From a virus: 64,000 nucleotides of DNA. The stretch is from the IMG/VR virus record IMGVR_UViG_3300025168_000033, positions 102,533-166,532 of that record, one strand, 5' to 3'. Shown here piece by piece: positions 21,307-52,838 of the stretch. A model generated the notes under the pieces. It was not told where the DNA came from. It saw only the letters and a program-made list of their open reading frames with translations, and ran no database searches. A program made the translations under genes and the position numbers. Within the stretch, counting starts at the first letter, position 1. Every line of letters begins with the position of its first letter.

Positions 21307-22785
21307 TTACTTTACCTTGATTCCGTATGTTTTATCAGACTTAGCTAAGGCTGTATCGTATTTTCCATCAAACCCGCTTACAACAAAAGTTTTTTGTGGA
21401 TTGACAACGACTCCTATTTTTTCCATCAATTCCCTATTAATAAGCATAGGAGTAGATTTAGATGAACGATCAACAACGCTAAAATGCATTTTACTATATG
21501 ATATTCCTCTAAATTTAATATCAAGTTCTATTATAGGACGTTTTGTAACCGTATCACCTACTTCGGCATTAGCGTAACCAACAATTTTTGATTTCATTTT
21601 TTTATTTCCAGCAGACCAATTTAAATAGCCATTTTTTTCTGACATTTTATCCGCATGAACTGATGACGATTTAGTACCGTTTCCACTATCAAATTTAGCA
21701 ACATATTCACCAAATCCAGTAAGATTAACAACTTCCATATATCCTATTTCAGTAACATTGACAGACCAATTAGATTTATCTTTTATGAAATCTATAATAT
21801 CTTGTAATATAGATTTTCCAATAACTTTTTTAATTCCTTTAGTCCCAGGAGAAGCATTTACTTCAAGTATATAATTCTTTTTAGTTTTATCATCAACAAT
21901 AATATCAACACCACACCAATGACATCCCATAGCATCTGCAGCCTTAACTGCTAAATTAATTTGTTCTTCAGTTAATTTTACATTTTCAACAGATCCACCA
22001 AGTGAATGATTAGTTCTAAAATCTTTTTTGTCTCCTCTATTACGTCGCATATATCCAATGATTTTAACATTGTCTTTATTGTTTCCGTGATAGTCAAATC
22101 TTTTAGTTAAGACCTGAATTCTAATATCGTAATCCGAATCAATTTTTTCTTGAATTAAAGTTTCAGTATCAGAAAGTTTCCACATTGTCTGTAAAACAGA
22201 TTTAAGCGATCCTTGTGAATCAATAATAGAAACACCTATTCCTTGAGATCCTGAAAGAGTCTTTAAAATTATAGGAAATTTTCCACCTATTTTTTTAATT
22301 GCATCATCTAATGAATCTATACTAGGAACTAATGCCGTTCTAGGCGTCGGTAATAAATGCTGCTCTAGTTTTTGTGCAGTTAAATATTTATTTTCACAAT
22401 CCAGGATTGAAGATAATGAATTAATGCAGAAGAATCCATTACTTTCAAATAATGATAGAATTCCACGAGTATATGTGTTTTTTACAACACCACGTCTAGC
22501 TATTATAACAGTATTTTCTTTATTAATAACAAATCCTTTTGATTCACCTTTATTTGTTAGCGTAATATTTCCATCATCATCTGGATCACTAATAGTACAG
22601 TCTTTTAAGCAAAATAAAAATCCGTTCATTCCAGAATTTACAGCCTTTTCAATTAAAAACTGTGGTGTATCTTGTGAATCTGGATCTACTGGCGTATTTG
22701 TCATTACAACAAGATTTAATTTATTACCTAGCTGAACTGCTTCAGTTAGCATATCATCAAATCTCTTGAACCTTATATTTTGCAT
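21307..22785 (-). CDS. RimK-like ATP-grasp ligase fused to retropepsin-like (RimB-type) domain
   Basis: A 492-aa two-domain protein. Residues ~115-330 are a RimK-like ATP-grasp: TPRTALVPSIDSLDDAIKK, GKFPIILKTLSGSQGIGVSI (the Lys/Gly-rich ATP loop), LIQEKID, an Arg-rich IGYMRRNRGDKKDFR, and metal-binding DIIVDDKTKKNYILEVNASP. Residues ~345-490 resemble the RimK-associated retropepsin-like family, with AKFDSGNGTKSSSVHADKM carrying the DSG catalytic motif. RimK adds Glu to ribosomal protein S6 and other acceptors, and RimB-type partners trim or modulate it. The gene follows the S1-like gene after a terminator hairpin. The target may be the ribosome, the virion or peptidoglycan; unproven. Confidence 0.8.
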   Translation of the reverse strand: MQNIRFKRFDDMLTEAVQLGNKLNLVVMTNTPVDPDSQDTPQFLIEKAVNSGMNGFLFCLKDCTISDPDDDGNITLTNKGESKGFVINKENTVIIARRGVVKNTYTRGILSLFESNGFFCINSLSSILDCENKYLTAQKLEQHLLPTPRTALVPSIDSLDDAIKKIGGKFPIILKTLSGSQGIGVSIIDSQGSLKSVLQTMWKLSDTETLIQEKIDSDYDIRIQVLTKRFDYHGNNKDNVKIIGYMRRNRGDKKDFRTNHSLGGSVENVKLTEEQINLAVKAADAMGCHWCGVDIIVDDKTKKNYILEVNASPGTKGIKKVIGKSILQDIIDFIKDKSNWSVNVTEIGYMEVVNLTGFGEYVAKFDSGNGTKSSSVHADKMSEKNGYLNWSAGNKKMKSKIVGYANAEVGDTVTKRPIIELDIKFRGISYSKMHFSVVDRSSKSTPMLINRELMEKIGVVVNPQKTFVVSGFDGKYDTALAKSDKTYGIKVK

Positions 22786-39266: not shown

Positions 39267-41807
39267 TTATACTTGTTGTTCATAGTAAAATGATATTAAA
39301 TCTGTTGTTGTAAGATCCATTCCATATATAGTTCCATTCCAATAGAACTTATCACCGAATACTATATCAACCCAATTTTTTGCAGGTGATGTAGAAGTAG
39401 AACTAAAGTATCCATCACAACCAGTTTTAGTTCCATCACCTAACTTGATAATCTGACCATTAATAGTTACAAATACATGGCCATCATTAGCCGGCGTTTT
39501 AGATATTATTGTGCCTGTATCGGCATCATCACCAGTAGTTGCAGCAGATGCCATATTCTTATTAAAGCCTGTTGAAAATGTTCCAGCGCCATCAGCACCA
39601 GTCATTCCTGTAGATCCAGTAGCTCCAGCAACGCCAATACCTGTCATTCCAGTAGGACCTGTAGCTCCAATACCAACAAGCTTAGTTAAGTTAGCATCAA
39701 AATTATTATATGTTATTGTGACTGCTTGATCTGCCTTTAAACGAATTTCAACTACATCATTAGCAACTAATGTTAATAATTTTGACATGGAAAACGAATA
39801 ATTAAATCCACTAGTTTCAAAGAAATTTGATGTGTCTGATCCAGCAATCAATAATCCATTTACATATATTGCAGCTGAAATATTTACATTATTCTGATTA
39901 GCTGATAATGAAAATGTAGCATCAAATTGATAAGCTCCACCATACAGTGTAGGAATTGTAAAATTATCACCAATTATACCTGATCCAGTTGCATATACAA
40001 GCCATCTATATTCACCTCTGGCAGTTCCAGTAATTCCGACATAAGATGTTGTAATTGCCGCAGTAGTTGAACTACCAGACGCAATACTCCATTCTCCATA
40101 GGTAACATCACCAGATACCTGTATCTCTGCACCAGTTGCACCAGCAGAACCAGTAGCACCTTTAAGACTAATAGGAGTTACTCCGGCAAATGTACCAGAG
40201 TTTTTAGGTCCGAAAAGTACAGTTTGAGATGTATCTAACCAGTAGTCACCAGTAGAGCCTAGACTATCATCAAAAGGTGCAACTCCTCTTATTATTCGTG
40301 TCCCTGTACCAGTAGGACCAGTAATTCCTGTTGCGCCTGTTTCACCAGCGCCTGGAATTCCAACAGCTACTACAGACCAGTCAACAGATGAATATGGTCC
40401 AATAAAAGATTTATATAATGGAGCTCCTAGTGATATAGTACCATTGAAACCGTTATATGCAATTACTATAGATTCTGTAAAATGAGAAATATCAACTGAA
40501 TCTATTATTCTAACTCTTTGTCCGGGTGCAAAATTTCTCAGTAATGGCAGAGTCCCAGTTAAAGTTATAGCTGTATTGTCTATTTCTATCGCTGGTCCTT
40601 GGTATCTTGTAAATAGACCACCACCACCTGTAGCACCTGTAGGCCCAGGCAAACCTGCACCTGTTTCACCAGTAGCTCCAGTAATATCTAATGATGTCGA
40701 TGGCCAATTGCCGGAAGTTTTAGGACCGTATAATTGTTTAGTAGAAGTATCTAACCAATAGTCACCATCACTACCAATAGCATTAGCTGGTGGTGTAATT
40801 CCATTTAGAATTGCGGCACCGTCAGGACCAGTCATTCCTGTTGCTCCTGTTTCACCAGCACCTGTTTCACCAGTAATACCTATACCAGCCATACCTGTAA
40901 TAGAAATATCCCAAGTATTTGATGAATATGAGCCAGACCCCCAGGTTCTATATAACGGTGCATCTAAAACTATTGCACCCGTAGAATTATCGTATGAAAA
41001 TATTTGAGATTCAAAAAATTTAGTAATATCATTAGGATTCACAACTCTAACTCGTTGACCAGCAATAAATGCTCTATTTATAGGGGTTGTAGCTGGAAAT
41101 GATACAGCAACACTCTGAACAACAATACTAGTTGCATTATACTTTGCAGTATAATCTGAGCCAGCACCAGTCATTCCTGTCATTCCAGTCATTCCAGTAG
41201 CACCGGTTTCACCCGCACCAGTCATTCCTGTCATACCTGTCATACCAGTAGGGCCTGGAACATTTGATACTCCGTCAGCACCAGTCATTCCAGTAGCACC
41301 AGTCACACCACCACCAGTCATTCCTGTCATACCTGTCATACCAGTAGGGCCTGGAACATTTGATACTCCAGGAATTCCTCGAAGTCCATCAGCACCTGTC
41401 ATACCGGTAGCACCTGTCATACCTGTCATACCAGTCATACCAGTCATTCCAGTAGATCCAGCAGGACCAGGCACAATAGAATCAGCACCTGTCATTCCTG
41501 TCATTCCTGTAGCACCGGCAGGACCAGCACCTACACCGGTTTCTCCAGCAGGACCTTGAGTTCCGTTACCTATAGATTCCCAGTCGTCAGTAGCATCAAA
41601 TGTAGAAAATGTAAGAACATCCCTTTTTGCTCGCCACCAGCTTACTGAACCTGAACCTGCATTTTCATAGAGTACAGTCATACCCTCAAGATAAGGATAA
41701 TTTTGAGTCCATTCATTAGGATATCGCCAGTTATTATCGTGTTCGGCATGAGTTAGATTTCGATCTATATCTAATCTAAAAATTACCTTATTTGGTTTAT
41801 TAGCCAT
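39267..41807 (-). CDS. collagen-like tail fibre with Gly-Met-Thr triplets
   Basis: An 846-aa protein. The N-terminus (FRLDIDRNLTHAEHDNNWRY) is followed at residues ~80-215 by collagen-like triplets dominated by GMT, GAT, GAD and GPA. Shorter triplet blocks recur near 300, 370, 480 and 720. Between them are two similar beta modules (RVRVVNPNDITKFFESQIFS; RVRIIDSVDISHFTESIVIA), each followed by a WLDTS...GPKNSG-type segment, so the protein is internally duplicated. The C-terminus (GDKFYWNGTIYGMDLTTTDL) is a typical fibre tip. Likely a long flexible trimeric fibre. Confidence 0.85.
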   Translation of the reverse strand: MANKPNKVIFRLDIDRNLTHAEHDNNWRYPNEWTQNYPYLEGMTVLYENAGSGSVSWWRAKRDVLTFSTFDATDDWESIGNGTQGPAGETGVGAGPAGATGMTGMTGADSIVPGPAGSTGMTGMTGMTGMTGATGMTGADGLRGIPGVSNVPGPTGMTGMTGMTGGGVTGATGMTGADGVSNVPGPTGMTGMTGMTGAGETGATGMTGMTGMTGAGSDYTAKYNATSIVVQSVAVSFPATTPINRAFIAGQRVRVVNPNDITKFFESQIFSYDNSTGAIVLDAPLYRTWGSGSYSSNTWDISITGMAGIGITGETGAGETGATGMTGPDGAAILNGITPPANAIGSDGDYWLDTSTKQLYGPKTSGNWPSTSLDITGATGETGAGLPGPTGATGGGGLFTRYQGPAIEIDNTAITLTGTLPLLRNFAPGQRVRIIDSVDISHFTESIVIAYNGFNGTISLGAPLYKSFIGPYSSVDWSVVAVGIPGAGETGATGITGPTGTGTRIIRGVAPFDDSLGSTGDYWLDTSQTVLFGPKNSGTFAGVTPISLKGATGSAGATGAEIQVSGDVTYGEWSIASGSSTTAAITTSYVGITGTARGEYRWLVYATGSGIIGDNFTIPTLYGGAYQFDATFSLSANQNNVNISAAIYVNGLLIAGSDTSNFFETSGFNYSFSMSKLLTLVANDVVEIRLKADQAVTITYNNFDANLTKLVGIGATGPTGMTGIGVAGATGSTGMTGADGAGTFSTGFNKNMASAATTGDDADTGTIISKTPANDGHVFVTINGQIIKLGDGTKTGCDGYFSSTSTSPAKNWVDIVFGDKFYWNGTIYGMDLTTTDLISFYYEQQV
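41217..41369. repeat. exact 57-bp direct repeat inside the collagen-like gene
   Basis: Two identical 57-bp copies at 41217-41273 and 41313-41369 lie within a wider field of 9-bp Gly-x-y codon repeats. They encode the same collagen-like block. Exact identity at the DNA level points to recent duplication or gene conversion. Confidence 0.85.
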
Positions 41808-42834: not shown

Positions 42835-43323
42835 TTAAATCCACGGAGATGTAGATTTATCAAATGACAATTCTACTAAAGTTTCCATGTTACCTACACT
42901 TACTCCAGCAGTTTTAAACATGCCAAAATGAGACTGATCTCTGTAATCATCAATCCAATATACATGCTTGAATCCAGAATTAATTAAAACCTTAGAACAC
43001 ATTTTACAAGGACTTAATGTTAATAGAACAATATAATTTTCAGGATCCTTTTCTTGGAATTTTGCAATCATATTAATTTCTGCATGAATAAATCCACTGC
43101 ATCCAGGATCCAGTGATTCTTCTTCAGTTCCAGTTTCTTCCTTTATAGTGTCGCCTTTAAACGATCCGTTATAGCCAAATGACGCTATTCTACTAAAGTC
43201 ATTTCTTAATGCCATGCATCCAACTTTTACTGTTGTTGCTGTAGATAGATTTGCAATCTGCTTTACTATTGTTGCATAGGTTGCAAGCTTATGAGATTTT
43301 CTTTTTATTTTTTCAATATCCAT
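42835..43323 (-). CDS. dCMP deaminase
   Basis: A 162-aa cytidine/deoxycytidylate deaminase. The zinc site is visible as HAEINMI (His and catalytic Glu) and SPCKMC (two Cys) at about residues 85-115. A second Cys/His-rich loop precedes it (DPGCSGFIHAE). The enzyme turns dCMP into dUMP and so balances dCMP (substrate of the hydroxymethylase) against dUMP/dTMP. It is the last gene of the nucleotide/sugar operon. The start overlaps the 83-aa gene by 19 nt. Confidence 0.9.
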   Translation of the reverse strand: MDIEKIKRKSHKLATYATIVKQIANLSTATTVKVGCMALRNDFSRIASFGYNGSFKGDTIKEETGTEEESLDPGCSGFIHAEINMIAKFQEKDPENYIVLLTLSPCKMCSKVLINSGFKHVYWIDDYRDQSHFGMFKTAGVSVGNMETLVELSFDKSTSPWI

Positions 43324-43556
43324 TTTCTATTTTTTACGTCCAATTCACCATTACCATATTTAATATCTAGTTCTTCTTTGAATTTATCATCAAGTTCTCT
43401 AAGTGTATTTATTCTATCTATTAATAAGTCTTTTTCTTGATGTAAACTTTCAATATCTTTTAATACAAGATCAAGGCTATTATGAAGTTCTTTATAAGAA
43501 TTCAAAAATACATCTATCTTCATTTCATCTAATTCATCGAGATTATATTCTTTCAT
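43305..43556 (-). CDS. small coiled-coil protein
   Basis: An 83-aa, highly charged helical protein (LDLVLKDIESLHQEKDLLID; INTLRELDDKFKEELDIKYG), a likely coiled coil. It overlaps the upstream NTase-kinase gene by 4 nt and the downstream deaminase by 19 nt, so it belongs to the operon. Not recognised. Confidence 0.62.
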   Translation of the reverse strand: MKEYNLDELDEMKIDVFLNSYKELHNSLDLVLKDIESLHQEKDLLIDRINTLRELDDKFKEELDIKYGNGELDVKNRKWILKK

Positions 43557-45157
43557 TTTAAATATTTTGTAAGTAATTGCATTCCGTAAAAATAAGAAGC
43601 AATAACCTTGTTAGGATTATTTTTAATGTAATAAGGCAATTTAAGCCAGATCAAACCAACTAATATTTTCACATCAATATCATCAGTAATTTTATCTAGA
43701 TCCTGACCTTCAATATCAAATTTAATTTCATCACCATCAATTTTAAATTTAAAGTTTTTGTCTAGATTAAAATGTGAATATCCAGACAAGCCATAAGCAA
43801 ATTTAGCATGATCATAATTAGTATCGCCATAGAAATTAGAATTCCCAAATCGACCACGTGGATCAATGAATTTTACTTCATGATAATATGATTCCATAGT
43901 TTGCCAATCCAATGTAAATTGATGTTCTATTCTTTTAGCCATGATATTTGACGAATTAGGATCGCCATGAATCAATCCCCAGTTATAGGTTTTAGATTTC
44001 AAATACATCAATAATTTATCCATCATTGAATAGAAATCACCTATTAAAACACCGTTAACTCGTGTAATATTCTTTGGAATCAAATATTCAATCTTGCTAT
44101 ATCTTTCAATAGGAACACGATAATATTCTTCAAATATATCAGCATTGAATTTTACCTTTTCAATATTAGATTCAGATAATTTTTCAATTGCTTCAAATAC
44201 GTCCGATGTCAATTTTGAATCTTCTGGCATTTCATGAATAGTTTGATATCCAGTAGTTTTAAGATTTTCCATTTCAATGCAATCCATATCAGCATTTAAA
44301 ATTTTAGGAAATGATTCACTTGAATTTTTAATTGCATGACAATAAAAATTAGATTCATGTTGCATAACCCTTTTACCGTAATCCGATATAGATTTTTTAT
44401 AGACTATAGATTCAGTAAATACAATATCATTAAACCATCGTTGTTCTACAGATTGAGATTCTAGATATTTTTCATATTTAGGAATATCACCTATATCGTC
44501 AATTGAAATTATGGATTCAGAAATAAATCTTCCCCAGCTATCGTAAGATCCAGTAGGATATTTTTCAATTGCATACATTAAATAATCTACAAAATCTATT
44601 TCATTATCGTCATTAATTACTAAGCTATAAAAGTCTTCAATAGATTTTATTTCTAATTCTTTATATTTGTAAAGACCCATGATATTTCCTTCATGACCAG
44701 GAGAATATTTTATTGTATTATCTTCAAGTCCATATCTATGAACTTTATTAGAATCAGTATAAACCTGAATCATTGCATTTTCAATATCAGCTAGCTTAGA
44801 TTTTTGATGAGGAACAATATCAGACCAGCTTAAAAATACATCTTTTAAATATTCTGGATGCTGATTTAATATCCAGTAGATAGTTCTAAAAGTACCATCA
44901 GTCTTTGGATAATATGCAAGTTTAATATTTCTATTTGAATGAAATACGTTCAAGTATTTTTGTATCATATTAACATAAGATTCCTCACTTAATACAATCA
45001 TCATTTCCTGTACTTCTTCATTTTCAAACCAGTATTCAACTAATTTATCAAGCATGGTTTGATTGCCAAGACTAAGAAGCAATTTAGGATATTGACCTTG
45101 AGTATATGTATGTAAACGACTACCTAATCCACCTGCAAGTATTAATGCTTTTGTCAT
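43553..45157 (-). CDS. sugar nucleotidyltransferase fused to APH/choline-kinase-like kinase
   Basis: A 534-aa two-domain enzyme. Residues 1-235 form a nucleotidyltransferase with LILAGGLGSRLHTYTQGQYP-K at the N-terminus (GGxGxR...PK loop) and SWSDIVP as a metal-site candidate. Residues ~270-534 resemble the aminoglycoside phosphotransferase/choline-kinase fold, with LIHGDPNSSNIMAK (HGDxxxxN catalytic loop) and FIDPRGRFG (DPRG replacing DFG). A kinase plus a nucleotidyltransferase on one chain can turn a free sugar into a nucleotide sugar in two steps. It follows the SIS isomerase gene by 4 nt. Confidence 0.82.
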   Translation of the reverse strand: MTKALILAGGLGSRLHTYTQGQYPKLLLSLGNQTMLDKLVEYWFENEEVQEMMIVLSEESYVNMIQKYLNVFHSNRNIKLAYYPKTDGTFRTIYWILNQHPEYLKDVFLSWSDIVPHQKSKLADIENAMIQVYTDSNKVHRYGLEDNTIKYSPGHEGNIMGLYKYKELEIKSIEDFYSLVINDDNEIDFVDYLMYAIEKYPTGSYDSWGRFISESIISIDDIGDIPKYEKYLESQSVEQRWFNDIVFTESIVYKKSISDYGKRVMQHESNFYCHAIKNSSESFPKILNADMDCIEMENLKTTGYQTIHEMPEDSKLTSDVFEAIEKLSESNIEKVKFNADIFEEYYRVPIERYSKIEYLIPKNITRVNGVLIGDFYSMMDKLLMYLKSKTYNWGLIHGDPNSSNIMAKRIEHQFTLDWQTMESYYHEVKFIDPRGRFGNSNFYGDTNYDHAKFAYGLSGYSHFNLDKNFKFKIDGDEIKFDIEGQDLDKITDDIDVKILVGLIWLKLPYYIKNNPNKVIASYFYGMQLLTKYLK

Positions 45158-45161
45158 CTTA

Positions 45162-45779
45162 TTATTTGTTTATTGTTTTTCCAATCGATCCACCTGGATG
45201 ATTGATTCCAAAATGTTCTTGTGTAAATTTTAAATCCTGTGATGCAGCTACACCAACAATATCACCAACCATTTGTATAGTTAATGCTGATATAGTAGGA
45301 ACCATATTATGCGGATCCAGTTCTTCGCCTATATGTAAATGAATTACTTTATCACAATATAAATCAAAGAAATTATGTTTTTGTGAACAATCGATTCCCC
45401 ATACAGTTACATTAAAATGTTCCTTGTTATTATCGATATGTTGAAGTGTATTTATTAATTCAGCAGTATTTCCTGACTTAGATTGACATATTAATATGTC
45501 GCCTGGATTTAAGATTCCTAGATCACCATGTACCGCATGTACAGCATCCATAAAGAAAGATGGAATTCCTAGTGATGAAAATGATGCAGCTAATTTTTGA
45601 GCAGCATACACATTTTTTCCTATTCCTGTGAAAATAACTTTTCTGCCATTGATTTTTGCATCAACTACATCTTTAGTTAATTCACGAATTAAATTCATAG
45701 TATCTGTATTCGCTATAGAATTTAAACTTTGATTAAGACTACTTGTTCCTTTACGTATAATTGCTTCGATTCTTTCCAT
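45162..45779 (-). CDS. arabinose-5-phosphate isomerase-like SIS protein (KdsD/KpsF type)
   Basis: A 205-aa single SIS domain. The KdsD/GutQ signatures are present: VIFTGIGKNVYAAQKLAASF, FFMDAVHAVHGDLGIL, ICQSKSGNTAELINTL, and the C-terminal FGINHPGGSIGK. This family interconverts ribulose-5-phosphate and D-arabinose-5-phosphate. The CBS pair found in cellular KdsD is missing, as in minimal forms. The gene sits between the HAD gene (1-nt overlap) and the NTase-kinase gene. No KDO synthase is seen in this window, so arabinose itself is the likelier product. Confidence 0.88.
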   Translation of the reverse strand: MERIEAIIRKGTSSLNQSLNSIANTDTMNLIRELTKDVVDAKINGRKVIFTGIGKNVYAAQKLAASFSSLGIPSFFMDAVHAVHGDLGILNPGDILICQSKSGNTAELINTLQHIDNNKEHFNVTVWGIDCSQKHNFFDLYCDKVIHLHIGEELDPHNMVPTISALTIQMVGDIVGVAASQDLKFTQEHFGINHPGGSIGKTINK

Positions 45780-47407
45780 TAATAAATTAAAGTTTGTATA
45801 TAGTTATTATTCTTATTTTGTTTTAATGTTTCAAATGCTATGCAATCCGATGAAATAAAATTTACAATTTTAGGACACAATATAGACATTTCAATTAATG
45901 ATTGATGTAGTACTTCTTCGGGATTTTCATAAATCGGTATTGTCATATTTTCATGATTTACAATTTCATTAAGAACACTAAAGTATAATGACTTTTTATT
46001 GATATTCAAATCACTAGCAATATTTATAATTTCAACATTATCTGGTGTTTTTTCGATTATGCTAGCATCGTTTGGATTAGTTATAAGAATTGCATATTTA
46101 CCTGAAGCACTAAATAATCGCTTAACGATTCCATCAAAATTATAGCAAGGATCTGAAAGCCTAAATGGCATGAAAAAGACATGATCAAATTTATTAGAAG
46201 CTTCTTTAATTATTGATGTAATTTTATTTGTTTCTTCTGTCGTTAATAATGACTTAAAGAATTCCTGTTGAATTTTCAAGAACTTACTATTTGAAATATT
46301 ATCATCAACAATTACGTTTGCATCAATAGTTAAATACTCTTCATTATCTGAATTATGTTTCATGAAATCTTTTTGATTCTCGTTTAATACAAATATTTGA
46401 TTTTCTGTATTTATTGCCCTTTCATATTGAGCATTAAAAAATGAATCTATAAACCATCTTTCAATATTGAAGTTTTGTGAGATATTAAAATTGTAATATC
46501 CATGATTGTGTTTAGATAAATCAATTCCTTCAAAGTCTGATATAACAGCATCATAAGAGTTACTTGCGCCATATTTACCATTGAACAATTTTCTATTTTC
46601 ATAAGCATTAATACCATAATCAATAGGTATAAATGTAATTCTATCAGCAAACGTAGGTCTAACAAATTTTAAAAGAATTTCCATTTGATCCTCGTCAATA
46701 TTTTTAGGTATTGTTATATCAAATTGTGACCATGAATTAGATTCACATATTCCATAAATTCTATGTAACGTTAAATTCAAGTTGCCATCCAATAATGGAT
46801 TGTAAGTTTCATCAGAATGATTACGCATTGAATATTGCTGAATAAACAAAATCTTATTAAATCTACGATCAATAAAGGTTTCTACAAATGATGCTTGATG
46901 TGATTTTTTTACTATTGTATCTGCAATTCTATCGAGAGGAATATCAATAAATACAAATTTGGATAAAACATGTAAAGCCATATCCATAAAGAAATAATCC
47001 GACGTATTATATTTACTTTTAAAATCTAAATGCGGCGTAAATATGCTATGAGCATTTGCTGTTGTAATAGCATAAGTATTTCTAAAGACATCAATATCAT
47101 AAATATCGTCACCAACATAAATACATTCATCAAGATTAAATTTAGCTTTTAATGTTGATAATTTTTTATGTGATTTAACAAATAATATTTCTGTAATTTT
47201 AAGATTTTTACAGAATCTTTGAGTTATAGCCTGTCCATTTTTAGTGCTATCACCTGTAATAATGTATATGTCAAATCTATTATCTACTAGAATATCTACC
47301 GCATGTCTGATACCCCAAGGGAAGGTTTTTAAAGCCTTCCCGTGTTCATCATAAATCATGTTCGATGCAAATACACCATCGAAATCCATAATAATTTTGT
47401 TTCTCAT
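45779..47407 (-). CDS. KdsC-like HAD phosphatase fused to a large C-terminal domain
   Basis: A 542-aa protein. Residues 1-150 form a HAD domain of the KdsC type: IIMDFDGVFASNMIYDEHGK (DxD nucleophile), YIITGDSTKNGQAI (motif II), VKSHKKLSTL (Lys of motif III) and CIYVGDDIYDID (motif IV). Residues ~165-542 are a separate alpha/beta domain. It contains FIQQYSMRNHS and, late, KFDHVFFMPFRLSDPCYNFD and ENPEEVLHQSLIEMSILCPK, which could be a GT-B-like fold. The HAD could dephosphorylate a sugar phosphate such as arabinose-5-phosphate; the C-terminal domain is unassigned. It overlaps both neighbours. Confidence 0.75.
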   Translation of the reverse strand: MRNKIIMDFDGVFASNMIYDEHGKALKTFPWGIRHAVDILVDNRFDIYIITGDSTKNGQAITQRFCKNLKITEILFVKSHKKLSTLKAKFNLDECIYVGDDIYDIDVFRNTYAITTANAHSIFTPHLDFKSKYNTSDYFFMDMALHVLSKFVFIDIPLDRIADTIVKKSHQASFVETFIDRRFNKILFIQQYSMRNHSDETYNPLLDGNLNLTLHRIYGICESNSWSQFDITIPKNIDEDQMEILLKFVRPTFADRITFIPIDYGINAYENRKLFNGKYGASNSYDAVISDFEGIDLSKHNHGYYNFNISQNFNIERWFIDSFFNAQYERAINTENQIFVLNENQKDFMKHNSDNEEYLTIDANVIVDDNISNSKFLKIQQEFFKSLLTTEETNKITSIIKEASNKFDHVFFMPFRLSDPCYNFDGIVKRLFSASGKYAILITNPNDASIIEKTPDNVEIINIASDLNINKKSLYFSVLNEIVNHENMTIPIYENPEEVLHQSLIEMSILCPKIVNFISSDCIAFETLKQNKNNNYIQTLIY

Positions 47408-47937
47408 ATTTTATCTTTTATAATGTTGTATACAGTTTTTAAATCGTTTACCGATGTATCTATAACTTCAATATTTATTTTAGGTACTTGATGTTGAATT
47501 TCAAATATATGAGATGCAAATAAATATTGCATATCAGTATATTCGGTTGAAGTTAATTTGACTTTATTTTTAGGACCGCGATTTAAATAATCTCTATGAG
47601 TATTTTTTAAATAGAACATTGTAATTTCATTATCTTTAGAAAGTTCCTTAACATATTCAATATCCATATATGTCTTTCTTTTAAATTGTTCCGAATAAAC
47701 AAATTCACTTAAAAAGAATCTATCAAATATGTAAGTATCGTTAGGAATAATTTTTAGAAATTTTTGCGTGAAATTATGTATGCCTTCGTAAAATATTCCA
47801 AGATGTTCAAATGGAATATCATCAGGTTGTTTCTTGCCTGGCTTTACAAAAGTGCCAATATTATCGCGATGAAGTATTTCTATTAATGTTGTTTTTCCAC
47901 AACGTTCAATACCTTCAAGTATAATTAATTTAGCCAT
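47404..47937 (-). CDS. thymidylate-kinase-like dNMP kinase
   Basis: A 177-aa P-loop kinase. The Walker A is ILEGIERCGKTTLIEIL at residues 5-21, and the DR motif with aromatic neighbours is YIFDRFFLSEFVYS near residue 70. A lid-like YLNRGPKNKVKLTS lies near 115. Thymidylate kinases are usually 200-215 aa, so this is short. The gene is coupled to the thymidylate-synthase-family gene (1-nt overlap). It probably phosphorylates the product of that enzyme, as gp1 of T4 does for hydroxymethyl-dCMP. Confidence 0.8.
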   Translation of the reverse strand: MAKLIILEGIERCGKTTLIEILHRDNIGTFVKPGKKQPDDIPFEHLGIFYEGIHNFTQKFLKIIPNDTYIFDRFFLSEFVYSEQFKRKTYMDIEYVKELSKDNEITMFYLKNTHRDYLNRGPKNKVKLTSTEYTDMQYLFASHIFEIQHQVPKINIEVIDTSVNDLKTVYNIIKDKI

Positions 47938-48632
47938 TAAATAATGTTAAGAGATTCTAAATATTCTTCATCACGTTCAAATACATGTGCGGATACAACT
48001 GATGACATAAATGTTCCGACTTCGATATTTAATTGTTTTGCTATTTCACATTGAAATCTACCCCATATATACATATCAAGCTTTAAGACTTGTGCCATAT
48101 TTTGTGATCGCATATGTAAGTGCATATTTAATTTATTTTCACGAATTGATAGCGTAGCAGAATCACAACATGGAAATTCTAATGATTCATCTTTATCAAG
48201 TAATTGCAAATCATCACTAGACAAAATAGAAATTACCGCACGTCGGCTATTAGGATTGTCCTTTAATTCTTTGAGAATTATTGGTAGTTGTGAAACAATT
48301 CTAGGACCATAAAACGTATTAAAATTTGCAGGCAAATCAGGATTTTCAGGCTTCTTTAAAAATCTAGCAACCTGAGGATAGTCTTTTAAAACCGATTCAG
48401 TATCAGTGGATCCACTTATCATCCAGTCATAGAAATTAACAGCATATCCATAGTCAATACGACCTATATCTTCATCTTTAAAAATATATGATGTTGGATC
48501 GTTTACTAGATATGTTAGTCCTTGAATTTCACGCATGTCACCTATGCGCGAATCAGTTTTATAATCCGGTTGTATCCAGATTTCAGAAATAGTATCTACA
48601 AAAGCTTCTTGAAATGTATTGACTGCTATCAT
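47937..48632 (-). CDS. thymidylate-synthase-family enzyme, probable dCMP hydroxymethylase
   Basis: A 231-aa protein of the thymidylate synthase fold. It has YGPRIVSQLPIILKELKDNP and SRRAVISI near the phosphate site, and the nucleophile in EFPCCDSATLSI (usual PCH is PCC). After RS there are ten residues to an Asp (RSQNMAQVLKLD), where thymidylate synthase has Asn (RS...PFN) that reads uracil. Asp at this place is the hallmark of T4-type dCMP hydroxymethylase. Substrate therefore is likely dCMP with methylene-tetrahydrofolate. It leads directly into the dNMP kinase gene. Confidence 0.8.
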   Translation of the reverse strand: MIAVNTFQEAFVDTISEIWIQPDYKTDSRIGDMREIQGLTYLVNDPTSYIFKDEDIGRIDYGYAVNFYDWMISGSTDTESVLKDYPQVARFLKKPENPDLPANFNTFYGPRIVSQLPIILKELKDNPNSRRAVISILSSDDLQLLDKDESLEFPCCDSATLSIRENKLNMHLHMRSQNMAQVLKLDMYIWGRFQCEIAKQLNIEVGTFMSSVVSAHVFERDEEYLESLNII

Positions 48633-48671
48633 ATATGTTTATTTTTTATATTACTATTTTGTTACATTGTT

Positions 48672-49457
48672 TCATATTGATTTCTTAATTGTATTCCGTA
48701 ATTGACAATGTTCTGATATTAACATCTCATCATTAAATTCGTCAATATTACTTGACCAGAATATACGACCATATATTTCTCTATTATCAATATATTGCTT
48801 GATTTCGTTTTTACGTAAATTATCCGAGAATATTACATATTCATATCTTCCACTATTATCATCATATACAATTTTATCTAATGCTTTATTTGCTATATAA
48901 TATGTACAATGAACTACAGGCACTTCAATAAGACCTTTACAGGTTTGATTCAATATATAATGATATTCAGGCGATTCTTTAAAATATCCATTCTGGTCTA
49001 TCGATGAATGATAGTTTGAATATAGATTCGGTGTTTTTAAAAGTGGAGCAACAACATCAAATCCGGTAGACCTAATCGCGTTAATTGTATGCGGCAAGCA
49101 AATATTATCACAATCGGCTATGAAATAATCAGCACCTTCGCTTAATGCAAAGTCACATGAATTCTGCCTAATCTTTCCTAAGATTTTAAATCTATTTACA
49201 TTCCAATCATGATTGCCGGTAGATATTAAATTAGAGTCTATAGATGAATCATCTAAATATATCTTATATTTCCATTTATACTTTTTATAGAAGTCACGTA
49301 ACACCTCCGAGGTATCATCATTATTATCGTTTGTTCGTATATAAAAAATTGTATCTGATGATATTTCAGTTTGAGCTAATAAACTATCCAGATAAAACGG
49401 CAATATATGTCCGACTGATTTTGCCAGAATTGCTATTACTAAAGGTTTCTTTTTCAT
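48672..49457 (-). CDS. glycosyltransferase, GT-A type
   Basis: A 261-aa protein with a GT-A nucleotide-sugar fold. It starts PLVIAILAKSVGHILPFYLD, followed by TIFYIRTNDNNDDTSEVLRD, and carries a metal-binding FIADCDNICLP (DxD-type) near residue 122. The closing part includes YEYVIFSDNLRKNEIKQYID. The layout resembles the procollagen-type (GT25-like) and related families. It lies in the operon with the hydroxymethylase and sugar-activation genes, and would transfer a sugar to DNA or to a glycan. Acceptor unknown. Confidence 0.78.
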   Translation of the reverse strand: MKKKPLVIAILAKSVGHILPFYLDSLLAQTEISSDTIFYIRTNDNNDDTSEVLRDFYKKYKWKYKIYLDDSSIDSNLISTGNHDWNVNRFKILGKIRQNSCDFALSEGADYFIADCDNICLPHTINAIRSTGFDVVAPLLKTPNLYSNYHSSIDQNGYFKESPEYHYILNQTCKGLIEVPVVHCTYYIANKALDKIVYDDNSGRYEYVIFSDNLRKNEIKQYIDNREIYGRIFWSSNIDEFNDEMLISEHCQLRNTIKKSI

Positions 49458-49458
49458 G

Positions 49459-50700
49459 TTAAAATAATGAATTAGTCTCTACTGCAGGTAAACAAAATTT
49501 ATTGTAATTTTCTGGCTTTACAATCTCATCAATCATTGCATACCATTTATTAGGAAAGTCGTTAACGTGTAATTTATCAAATATTCCTTTTTGAATTTGT
49601 TTCCTAAATTCTAGATCTTCTGGAATTTCATTTATTATATCTAGTAACGTATCCGGATTATCATTCAATAAATCTACGTTATATGAATAATGTGAAATGT
49701 CTTTTAGGATAGTTTCTGCTGGATATTTATTTTCAAAATCATTTGAAAATGCAAGAACAGATGGAACTCCAAGTTCACCAACTTCTAGCATTGTTATTGG
49801 ACCTGTTTCCTTATAAGATCCGCTAATAAATGCTTTACAGTTTGCAGCAATTTTAAACATTTCATCACGCGGCATACCAACATGCACTTTAACATGTTCA
49901 TACAATTTTTCCTGTTTTAATATTCTATTAAGAATTGCATCCGCAGCATAATCATTGTGCTTAGTAAAAATATGGATATCACCACCTTTATAATCTGTCA
50001 AAAATTTCAATGTTTCTGGAATTCTTTTCATCTTATCTGTACGGCCTATCATCATAATATCACCAGTAGAACTTTTAACTTCTTGCTTAGGATTTTCAAA
50101 GCAGAAACTAAAGAATCCATTATTGAAATCTACAAACGGAATAGGAATAGGTGGTATTTTCTTGGCTTCCATAGTATATGTAGCCTTAGCAAAATCCGAG
50201 TTAGTCATCATAACAGTATTAACTCTACCGGGTGCTGTAGCTCTATAATTATCATGATCTAGATACCAATCTTTCATTCCAGGAAATGGGCATTCAACAA
50301 GTGCAATTTGTGCACTCATATGAAAAATATTGATGATATTTAATTTCTTGTTGCAGCTATATGGCATCAAGGTTTTACACATGTTATTCATCTTTTTACC
50401 GTCAGTAAATGCGTGATTAACTAAAACATCTATTCGTCTATCGACAATAATCTGTTGAATTTCTGGACCGATTCTAGATATTCTGCCTTTCTTACCGCAT
50501 AGAATTGAAGTAACAATATGATTTTCATGAATCTTAGGAGAATCCTTAGTTTCATGTGTGAATGAATATAGATAATGATTATTGTCAGTATTGTCATTGA
50601 CTAAGGCTTCCCACCAGGCAAGACAGACCCTTTCGGATCCGCCTGCTACTTTATTAATTTCAACTGGGCCTCGTGGTAAAAATACATGTAGATAATTCAT
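49459..50700 (-). CDS. glycosyltransferase, GT-B / GT4-like
   Basis: A 413-aa protein of the GT-B fold. The N-terminal domain opens MNYLHVFLPRGPVEINKVAG with GGSERVCLAWWEAL, a typical acceptor-side loop. The C-terminal domain has IMMIGRTDKMKRIPETLKFL (sugar-nucleotide entry), VHVGMPRDEMFKIAANCKAF and SGSYKETGPITMLEVGELGV (the E-x7-E motif region). It begins the operon downstream of the ligase gene and stops 1 nt before the GT-A gene. Two transferases would allow a mono- and a di-sugar on the same base, or different acceptors. Confidence 0.82.
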   Translation of the reverse strand: MNYLHVFLPRGPVEINKVAGGSERVCLAWWEALVNDNTDNNHYLYSFTHETKDSPKIHENHIVTSILCGKKGRISRIGPEIQQIIVDRRIDVLVNHAFTDGKKMNNMCKTLMPYSCNKKLNIINIFHMSAQIALVECPFPGMKDWYLDHDNYRATAPGRVNTVMMTNSDFAKATYTMEAKKIPPIPIPFVDFNNGFFSFCFENPKQEVKSSTGDIMMIGRTDKMKRIPETLKFLTDYKGGDIHIFTKHNDYAADAILNRILKQEKLYEHVKVHVGMPRDEMFKIAANCKAFISGSYKETGPITMLEVGELGVPSVLAFSNDFENKYPAETILKDISHYSYNVDLLNDNPDTLLDIINEIPEDLEFRKQIQKGIFDKLHVNDFPNKWYAMIDEIVKPENYNKFCLPAVETNSLF

Positions 50701-52349: not shown

Positions 52350-52838
52350 TTATTCCTTAAATTTGTTTATTGATTCTCTTAATAGCTGAGATTCTTTATT
52401 ATATATTTCCTCGTCATTACCGTTGTATGTTAGATGTACAGGTCGCGGAACATTAGCACCGACATATTCTAAAATATGTTTCATATGACTCGTACCTAAT
52501 AGATTGCCAGAAAAACTACCTGAATATCCGACGAGGAAAACATTCTTGTCTTTAAGATAATTTGGCCATCCTAAATTGTCGACTAATGCTTTAAATGGCG
52601 CTGGAAAGGAACCATTAAATTCCGGCATTACGAATACAAATTTAACAGCTTTATATACCGGATGCTTAATGTTAGATATTATCTCTTCTGGATTAATTGA
52701 TTCCTGTTTTACATCAAGTATTGTAGCAAGATCTGTTTTATTTACTATGGCCGCTATATTTGTAGCAAGCTTAGAGCCAAATCCCTTATCCGTACTTAAT
52801 TTAAGAATAATATATTTAGTCACTGGTTTACCAGACAT
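52350..52838 (-). CDS. NADPH-dependent FMN reductase-like flavoprotein
   Basis: A 162-aa flavodoxin-like protein. The signature FVFVMPEFNGSFPAPFKALVDNLG corresponds to the PEYNGSxPxxLKNxxD motif of the NADPH-dependent FMN reductase/azoreductase family, and is followed by NVFLVGYSGSFSGNLLGTSH. Such enzymes reduce flavins, quinones or chromate. Phage copies are uncommon; it might support ribonucleotide reduction or counter redox stress. The start overlaps the upstream gene by 11 nt. Confidence 0.82.
   Translation of the reverse strand: MSGKPVTKYIILKLSTDKGFGSKLATNIAAIVNKTDLATILDVKQESINPEEIISNIKHPVYKAVKFVFVMPEFNGSFPAPFKALVDNLGWPNYLKDKNVFLVGYSGSFSGNLLGTSHMKHILEYVGANVPRPVHLTYNGNDEEIYNKESQLLRESINKFKE

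Follow-up and report, generated by a model that had tools for sequence, protein, structure and literature searches.

A probable operon for glycosylated 5-hydroxycytosine DNA in a relative of Bacteroidota jumbo phages

Does the gene cluster at positions 42835-50700 of this window, a 64,000-nucleotide stretch of viral DNA, encode the synthesis of glycosylated cytosine in DNA, and if so, which base and which sugar are involved? In RB69-type phages, arabinose is carried on 5-hydroxycytosine, made via a 5-hydroxy-dCMP synthase of the thymidylate synthase (TS) superfamily (PMC13390438). We favor the interpretation, with a probability of about 0.72, that the operon is a variant of this RB69/LC53-type arabinosyl-5-hydroxycytosine pathway. 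An earlier note on this DNA had proposed a route to arabinosylated hydroxymethylcytosine (hmC). Its outline, pentosylation of cytosine in DNA as in RB69 with an arabinose probably derived from ribulose-5-phosphate, is retained here, while hmC as the base is not.

Layout of the operon

All open reading frames named in the earlier note are present on the minus strand (Table 1), and the tight operon described there holds up. Seven of the eight junctions between its nine genes overlap or lie within 4 bp (spacings of +1, +39, -1, -4, -1, +4, -4 and -19 bp). Comparable clusters of homologous proteins recur across many other phages, so this arrangement exceeds chance. The virus is a relative of Bacteroidota jumbo phages, in agreement with the probable Bacteroidota phage suggested before. 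The 83-residue ORF has no match in Pfam and phrog family searches. A Gly-X-Thr-rich collagen-like protein is encoded at 39267-41807, 1 kb beyond the operon.

Table 1. Features of the operon, in window coordinates
Feature	Coordinates	Strand	Evidence
dCMP deaminase	42835..43323	-	PF00383 7e-16; phrog_174 2e-25
Small ORF, 83 aa, function unassigned	43305..43556	-	overlaps both neighbours
Fused sugar-1-phosphate NTase (~residues 1-245) and APH-like kinase (~249-534)	43553..45157	-	phrog_4098 4e-89
SIS isomerase, probable D-arabinose-5-phosphate isomerase	45162..45779	-	phrog_5670 9e-39
GT-B glycosyltransferase domain, residues 180-520 of fusion, RB69 ORF046/047c family	45848..46870	-	phrog_3891 2e-33
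KdsC-type HAD phosphatase domain, residues 1-170 of 542-aa fusion	46898..47407	-	phmmer 1e-8 to KdsC 7t35
dNMP kinase (thymidylate-kinase-like)	47404..47937	-	phrog_761 thymidylate kinase 3e-13
TS-fold enzyme, most likely 5-hydroxy-dCMP synthase	47937..48632	-	clade, identity, folate-site residues
GT261, GT-A glycosyltransferase like human COLGALT1 N-terminal GT domain	48672..49457	-	phmmer 4e-22
GT413, GT4-like (GT-B type by Pfam), first operon gene	49459..50700	-	PF00534 6e-6, exactly at curated cut-off

Nucleotide supply and the modified base

The TS-fold enzyme (231 residues; PF00303 match, 5e-13) retains the catalytic Cys and has an Asp, D186, at the position of TS Asn177. This substitution had been pointed out before and is genuine. 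It had also been read as the hallmark of dCMP hydroxymethylases; however, the Asp is common to hydroxymethylases and 5-hydroxy-dCMP synthases, and the remaining residues and the tree favor the latter. The window enzyme is ~52% identical to RB69 ORF048c and to its LC53 counterpart and falls in the RB69/LC53/Thanatos clade (support 98/95), apart from T4 gp42. At the ThyA folate-contact positions W80, W83, D169 and G173 it has A, F, N and V, losses that are common to the RB69, LC53 and Thanatos enzymes, whereas gp42 retains W80, D169 and G173. A newer account treats the TS homologue of these three phages as a 5-hydroxy-dCMP synthase and re-assigns the RB69 modification from arabinosyl-hmC to arabinose on 5-hydroxycytosine (PMC13390438), so the precedent cited in the earlier note no longer points to hmC. 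Because folate-site residues and tree place the window enzyme with the 5-hydroxy-dCMP synthases, its sequence indicates that the modified base is most likely 5-hydroxycytosine and not 5-hydroxymethylcytosine. The A/F/N/V pattern may serve as a marker separating makers of 5-hydroxycytosine from makers of hydroxymethylcytosine. Loss of the catalytic Glu58 was dropped as a clade marker, as one alignment has Phe across the clade and a second has Glu in RB69 and LC53.

The neighboring genes are of a kind that would feed such an enzyme. The dNMP kinase, correctly recognized before, is thymidylate-kinase-like (its PF02223 match, 2e-5, is under the curated cut-off), and its homologue adjoins the TS gene in straboviruses and in two related phages, L009 and L042. 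A 62% identical homologue of the dCMP deaminase lies downstream of the TS gene in L009, and a dCTPase homologue is encoded in the same genome outside the window.

Sugar activation and transfer

The isomerase has its best family matches to KpsF/GutQ/KdsD (PF01380, 5e-10; KpsF/KdsD model TIGR00393, 4e-30, under that model's cut-off) and conserves the catalytic residues K59, E111, E152 and H193, numbered as in E. coli KdsD. The HAD domain retains the motifs DFDG, TGD and GDD in alignment with E. coli KdsC and matches the KdsC-type model TIGR01670 at 8e-12, again under the cut-off. Both the KdsD-type isomerase and the KdsC-like phosphatase claimed earlier are thus upheld. So is the lack of KDO partners: neither KDO synthase (PF00793) nor CMP-KDO transferase (PF02348) was found in the 166.5-kb record, which may be incomplete, and a KDO/LPS role was rejected on this basis. 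Unlike in E. coli, the two homologues occur here without KdsA or KdsB and alongside an NTase-kinase fusion. That fusion carries the HGDxxxxN and IDPRG motifs (PF00483 match to the NTase half, 4e-9) and is homologous over its full length to proteins of RB69, PAU and PTm1; its presence had been noted correctly, but it is not new, since the same fusion is present in RB69 and in hundreds of further phages. A HAD gene occurs in the locus of 59 of 65 NTase-kinase relatives, and the isomerase, NTase-kinase and HAD genes are contiguous in archaea and bacteria. Phage PAU combines this trio with a diverged TS, and its DNA has been reported as extensively modified (PMC7824862). An isomerase search of records G001, G002 and G012, run without a positive control, gave no match.

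The "extra domain" ascribed earlier to the phosphatase does exist, not as an unexplained extension but as a GT-B glycosyltransferase, which brings the glycosyltransferases of the operon to three instead of two. In the AF2 model (pLDDT mostly 70-90), the Foldseek matches of this domain are GT-B folds and RB69 ORF047c. GT-B genes of the ORF046/047c family adjoin the TS gene in 41 of 43 loci; in the window the domain is fused to the HAD, and the dNMP kinase gene lies between the fusion and the TS gene. Of the three glycosyltransferases, the fused domain is the strongest candidate for putting the first sugar on DNA, which would make this family a probable DNA pentosyltransferase family; the literature examined had not settled this step. 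The homologue in Thanatos, TH1_063, was reported as a UDP-xylose pyrophosphorylase and gave no sugar transfer in vitro (PMC12838424), which counts against this assignment. The HAD::GT-B fusion was not found elsewhere in the sets searched, and the L009 and L042 protein between TS and dNMP kinase has no detectable similarity to the window GT-B domain.

The other two glycosyltransferases are candidates for adding further sugars. GT261 is homologous to COLGALT1 across the whole GT-A domain (residues 6-232 of 261), including the DxD motif (D115-x-D117), an unexpected collagen-galactosyltransferase-like member among the enzymes listed before. Unlike COLGALT1, it is a one-domain protein encoded in a phage operon, and its acceptor is presumably not hydroxylysine. 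A 59% identical homologue lies near the TS gene in L042 (294 kb), and no relative was found in the phage collection at E<=1e-5. GT413 matches phrog_2170 (glycosyltransferase, 4e-4), and neither the phage collection nor the IMG/VR pattern scan yielded a relative; an AF2 model of GT413 alone had a pLDDT of 35 and was left unused. The HAD::GT-B fusion, the COLGALT-related GT-A enzyme and the orphan GT4-like enzyme are new here.

From these homologies, together with gene order, retained catalytic residues, the GT-B fold and the tree position of the synthase, we infer the following route, including its activities and the role of each glycosyltransferase; nearly all of its steps sit in one operon. 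The dCTPase homologue and dCMP deaminase would lower canonical dCTP, and the TS-fold enzyme would convert dCMP to 5-hydroxy-dCMP, which the dNMP kinase and then a general NDP kinase would raise to the triphosphate for incorporation by the polymerase. The isomerase would convert ribulose-5-phosphate to D-arabinose-5-phosphate, arabinose being the likely sugar by analogy with RB69. Arabinose-1-phosphate would be formed by the HAD domain and the kinase half together, with the phosphatase acting first, as proposed in the earlier note, or the kinase first via a 1,5-bisphosphate, as in NDP-heptose synthesis. The NTase half would then form NDP-arabinose, and the fused GT-B domain would place the first pentose on 5-hydroxycytosine in DNA. 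GT261, GT413 or both may extend it, on the model of the second arabinose in RB69-type phages and the third in some phages.

Related systems and alternative explanations

The window shares with RB69 and LC53 (Straboviridae) a clustered TS-fold synthase, ORF046/047c-type GT-B, dNMP kinase, arabinose-5-phosphate isomerase, NTase-kinase and HAD. It differs in its Bacteroidota-type jumbo phage background, its gene order, the deaminase within the operon and its HAD, which is KdsC-type and fused to the GT-B, whereas that of RB69 is EcbF/BcbF-type; this change of HAD family weighs against our interpretation. So does the nature of the extra glycosyltransferases, which are non-homologous to RB69 ORF003c: no ORF003c-family second arabinosyltransferase was found, GT413 has no detectable relationship to ORF003c, and two other glycosyltransferases are present, although this type of pathway may not require ORF003c. 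The operon also has no U32 or chorismate-mutase gene, and the record no U32, which again counts against it. The U32 hydroxylase, present in RB69 and LC53, was rejected as a required partner as it is missing here and in strabovirus records G008-G010; since the module occurs without them in several other straboviruses, these genes are not defining. Shewanella phage Thanatos-1 has homologues of the NTase-kinase, HAD, TS, GT-B and dNMP kinase (TH1_060-TH1_064), but its HAD and GT-B are separate genes and no SIS isomerase is among the genes compared. The pentose reported on cytosine in its DNA is a deoxypentose (PMC12838424). The T4 glucosyl-hmC system resembles the window in TS fold, Asp at the Asn177 position and supply logic (dCTPase and dCMP deaminase), but T4 uses host UDP-glucose, whereas the window sugar would be made de novo.

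These comparisons bear on base and sugar alike. A dCMP hydroxymethylase function for the TS-fold enzyme, yielding arabinosyl-5-hydroxymethylcytosine as in the original RB69 report (PMC6024577), is improbable: the Asp is placed as in gp42, but the enzyme has A, N and V where gp42 keeps W80, D169 and G173, it clusters away from gp42, and RB69 itself has been re-assigned (PMC13390438). It is somewhat less improbable, though still unlikely, that the first sugar on 5-hydroxycytosine is another pentose, a heptose or a hexose. Isomerases and NTases of these folds vary in substrate, the closest solved relatives of the NTase half are 6-deoxy-heptose pathway enzymes, Thanatos with its homologous genes has a reported deoxypentose (PMC12838424), and L009 and L042 have an epimerase in place of the sugar cassette. 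The conserved KdsD positions and family matches of the isomerase argue for arabinose, as does the arabinose made by the homologous RB69 module (PMC6024577).

The acceptor may also be questioned. The TS, kinase and GT-B could modify DNA while GT261, perhaps with GT413, glycosylates the nearby collagen-like fibre protein, a division of labor that we likewise consider unlikely. GT261 is a collagen-galactosyltransferase homologue, and L042, too, has a collagen-like protein at its edge. However, GT261 adjoins the TS gene within the operon here and is near it in L042, the L009 locus has a collagen-like protein but no GT261 match, and phages commonly have collagen-like fibres but no glycosyltransferase of this sort. 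Least probable is a role of the sugar genes in making a surface glycan or some other product unrelated to DNA, with only chance placing them next to the nucleotide genes. The trio does occur in cellular genomes and, within a glycan-type cluster of nucleotide-sugar dehydratase and glycosyltransferase genes, in the 231-kb viral record L051, which lacks TS; yet in the window the sugar genes interleave and overlap with those for TS, dNMP kinase and dCMP deaminase, the TS-partner GT-B domain is present, and neither a polymerase nor a flippase was found among the operon's genes.

Under the arabinosyl-5-hydroxycytosine interpretation, glycosyl-5-hydroxycytosine DNA armour would extend from T4-like phages to a Bacteroidota-type jumbo lineage, and a collagen-galactosyltransferase relative is now placed in a DNA-modification operon. 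More tentatively, the 5-hydroxycytosine could carry a mixed oligosaccharide and so be a hypermodified base not described before, with arabinose added by the phosphatase-GT fusion and a different sugar then placed on it as a cap by the COLGALT-like enzyme. This possibility, which we do not favor, would tie DNA glycosylation to a collagen glycosyltransferase domain of eukaryotic type and would mean that related phages exchange their sugar cassettes while the 5-hydroxy-dCMP backbone stays fixed. That relatives retain the synthase but differ in their sugar genes suggests sugar exchange, which bears on the evasion of modification-sensing defences.

Operon layout and the proposed modified base

Nine co-directional genes form a compact operon with intergenic gaps of +1, +39, -1, -4, -1, +4, -4 and -19 bp. 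ORF and family/profile comparison upheld the gene calls of the earlier note, whose observation as a whole was confirmed. Its interpretation, arabinosylation of hydroxymethylcytosine (hmC) DNA, is supported in part, exceptions including the base and the novelty of the kinase-nucleotidyltransferase fusion. Based on sequence comparison, the operon is predicted to encode phage DNA hypermodification of the arabinosyl-5-hydroxycytosine type, as a new variant of that type.

The 231-aa thymidylate-synthase-fold (TS) enzyme does carry the previously noted Asp (D186) at the Asn177 position of thymidylate synthase. T4 gp42 is not its nearest relative; identity is 52% with RB69 ORF048c and with the LC53 enzyme, and up to 57% with other straboviral enzymes. 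The enzyme falls in a clade with RB69, LC53 and Shewanella phage Thanatos (98/95 support) that leaves T4 gp42 outside, a reading that leans on residues as well since the tree has some long branches. Positions W80, W83, D169 and G173 of E. coli ThyA, folate contacts in thymidylate synthase, are A, F, N and V in the window, RB69, LC53 and Thanatos, whereas T4 gp42 retains W80, D169 and G173. RB69 DNA was first described as arabinosyl-hmC (PMC6024577) and later as bearing arabinose on 5-hydroxycytosine, made through a TS-superfamily 5-hydroxy-dCMP synthase (PMC13390438); in Thanatos, a deoxypentose O-linked directly to cytosine has been reported (PMC12838424). The TS relatives, the residues and these DNA reports therefore favor 5-hydroxycytosine, which supersedes hmC as the proposed base.

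Cytosine replacement would require dCTP depletion, with the dCMP deaminase and a dCTPase homologue as putative supporting pool enzymes. The latter, a 159-aa protein, is 46% identical over 97 residues to the annotated dCTPase of LC53 and is flanked by ORFs that by eye are DNA-polymerase-like and NrdB-like. A protein that by eye resembles flavodoxin/NADPH-FMN reductases, with no PHROG match, is also encoded upstream of the TS operon in the syntenic relatives L009 and L042; it could be a source of reducing equivalents for the synthase.

Members of the U32 family, RlhA/TrhP for example, are hydroxylases linked to prephenate. A U32-family protein is encoded next to TS in the RB69 and LC53 modules, the latter also having a chorismate-mutase-domain protein there, suggesting a second hydroxylation route, perhaps oxygen-independent. 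Searches of strabovirus records G008-G010 and of the window's record returned no U32.

Features of the operon, its surroundings and compared loci (window coordinates unless marked)
Feature	Coordinates	Strand	Remark
Nine-gene operon	50700 to 42835	-	GT413, GT261, TS-fold enzyme, dNMP kinase, 542-aa HAD fusion, SIS isomerase, 534-aa NTase-kinase, 83-aa ORF, dCMP deaminase
Flavodoxin-like protein	52350-52838	-	
Collagen-like virion protein	39267-41807	-	1 kb past operon
S6 glutaminyl transferase-like protein	21307-22785	-	structural region
dCTPase homologue	78456-78740 of record		outside window
U32-family protein	L001:6257-7662; L002:6787-8297		RB69; LC53 (with chorismate-mutase-domain protein)
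NAD-dependent epimerase	L042:14647-15792; L009:8123-9280		beside TS, relatives without arabinose genes
SIS, NTase-kinase, HAD trio	L051:7887-10290		231-kb viral record without TS

Proposed sugar synthesis and cassette exchange

The SIS isomerase keeps 4/4 KdsD catalytic positions and matches the phage arabinose-5-phosphate isomerase family. The NTase-kinase fusion, thought new in the earlier note, was already known, because full-length homologues occur in RB69 (ORF053_052c) and in 367 phage records. The HAD domain of the 542-aa fusion is KdsC-type, whereas the HAD phosphatases also present in RB69 and LC53 belong to the EcbF/BcbF family. A genome scan placed SIS, NTase-kinase and HAD genes side by side in several genomes of archaea and bacteria; of 65 full-length NTase-kinase relatives, 59 have a HAD gene in their locus. 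This supports a single predicted three-enzyme route to an NDP-sugar. We infer the identity, linkage and number of the sugars, taking arabinose as the product by analogy with RB69. In L051 the trio sits within a large glycan-type cluster and is probably the same cassette put to another purpose.

L009 and L042 retain TS and the dNMP kinase, while a GT-like protein (so named by eye, unrelated and matching no family) and an NAD-dependent epimerase, possibly an NDP-pentose epimerase, take the place of the arabinose genes. Searches did not detect the NTase-kinase in the records of L008 and L009. Homologues of the epimerase directly adjoin SIS in three metagenomic viral contigs (L046-L048), two of which have the NTase-kinase there too. 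It thus looks as if related phages exchange sugar cassettes around a constant, predicted 5-hydroxy-dCMP core.

Candidate glycosyltransferases

The transferase part (TRANSFERASES) comprises a HAD::glycosyltransferase fusion, GT261 and GT413. The extra domain noted earlier on the phosphatase exists and is itself the glycosyltransferase. Most of residues 180-520 have pLDDT 70-90 in the AF2 model, in which the HAD part is poor and had no homologues in the alignment. Foldseek matches for the C-terminal domain are GT-B enzymes, the best being the tetrahydrobiopterin glucosyltransferase 9v0l (E 7e-5); among viral models, RB69 ORF047c (TMt 0.80) and ORF046c matched. The fusion is covered to 80% by 0/339 phage records and is seen in 0/43 loci with the GT-B domain; at L212 the cluster with that domain also has a KdsC-type HAD, as a separate gene.

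A TS gene is present, nearly always immediately upstream, in 41 of these 43 loci, which are not independent cases as several share contigs; the remaining two contigs start inside the GT-B gene. This adjacency singles out the GT-B domain as the strongest candidate for transferring the first pentose. Counting against this role, its Thanatos homologue TH1_063 was reported as a UDP-xylose pyrophosphorylase, with no sugar transfer seen in vitro (PMC12838424).

GT261 is homologous to the GT domain at the N-terminus of human COLGALT1 (E 4e-22). A search of the phage collection at E<=1e-5 gave it no relatives, but the 294-kb syntenic relative encodes a 59% homologue near TS. GT413 is a GT4-like orphan. 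RB69-type phages carry two arabinoses and some phages three (PMC13390438), and by analogy GT261 and GT413 may extend the glycan. The collagen-like virion protein, which has many Gly-X-Thr repeats, is a possible alternative acceptor for the collagen-galactosyltransferase-like GT261.

Virus lineage

One baseplate protein of the window has relatives only in uncultured huge phages, in phages of Prevotella (Lak), Tenacibaculum, Chryseobacterium and Flavobacterium, and in phage PAU, whose recorded host is Sphingomonas. From these relatives, our best guess is a Bacteroidota-type jumbo myophage. The IMG/VR virus record, of which the window spans 102533-166532, totals 166,532 bp and is probably a fragment of a larger genome, since two syntenic relatives reach 254 and 294 kb. 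A baseplate-related 462-kb uncultured phage (LR756500.1) has instead a T4-gp42-like enzyme with W80, D169 and G173 kept and Asp at 177, and hmC and hydroxy-C enzymes may thus alternate among related huge phages. A protein encoded in the window's structural region matched the ribosomal protein S6 glutaminyl transferase PHROG (2e-15).
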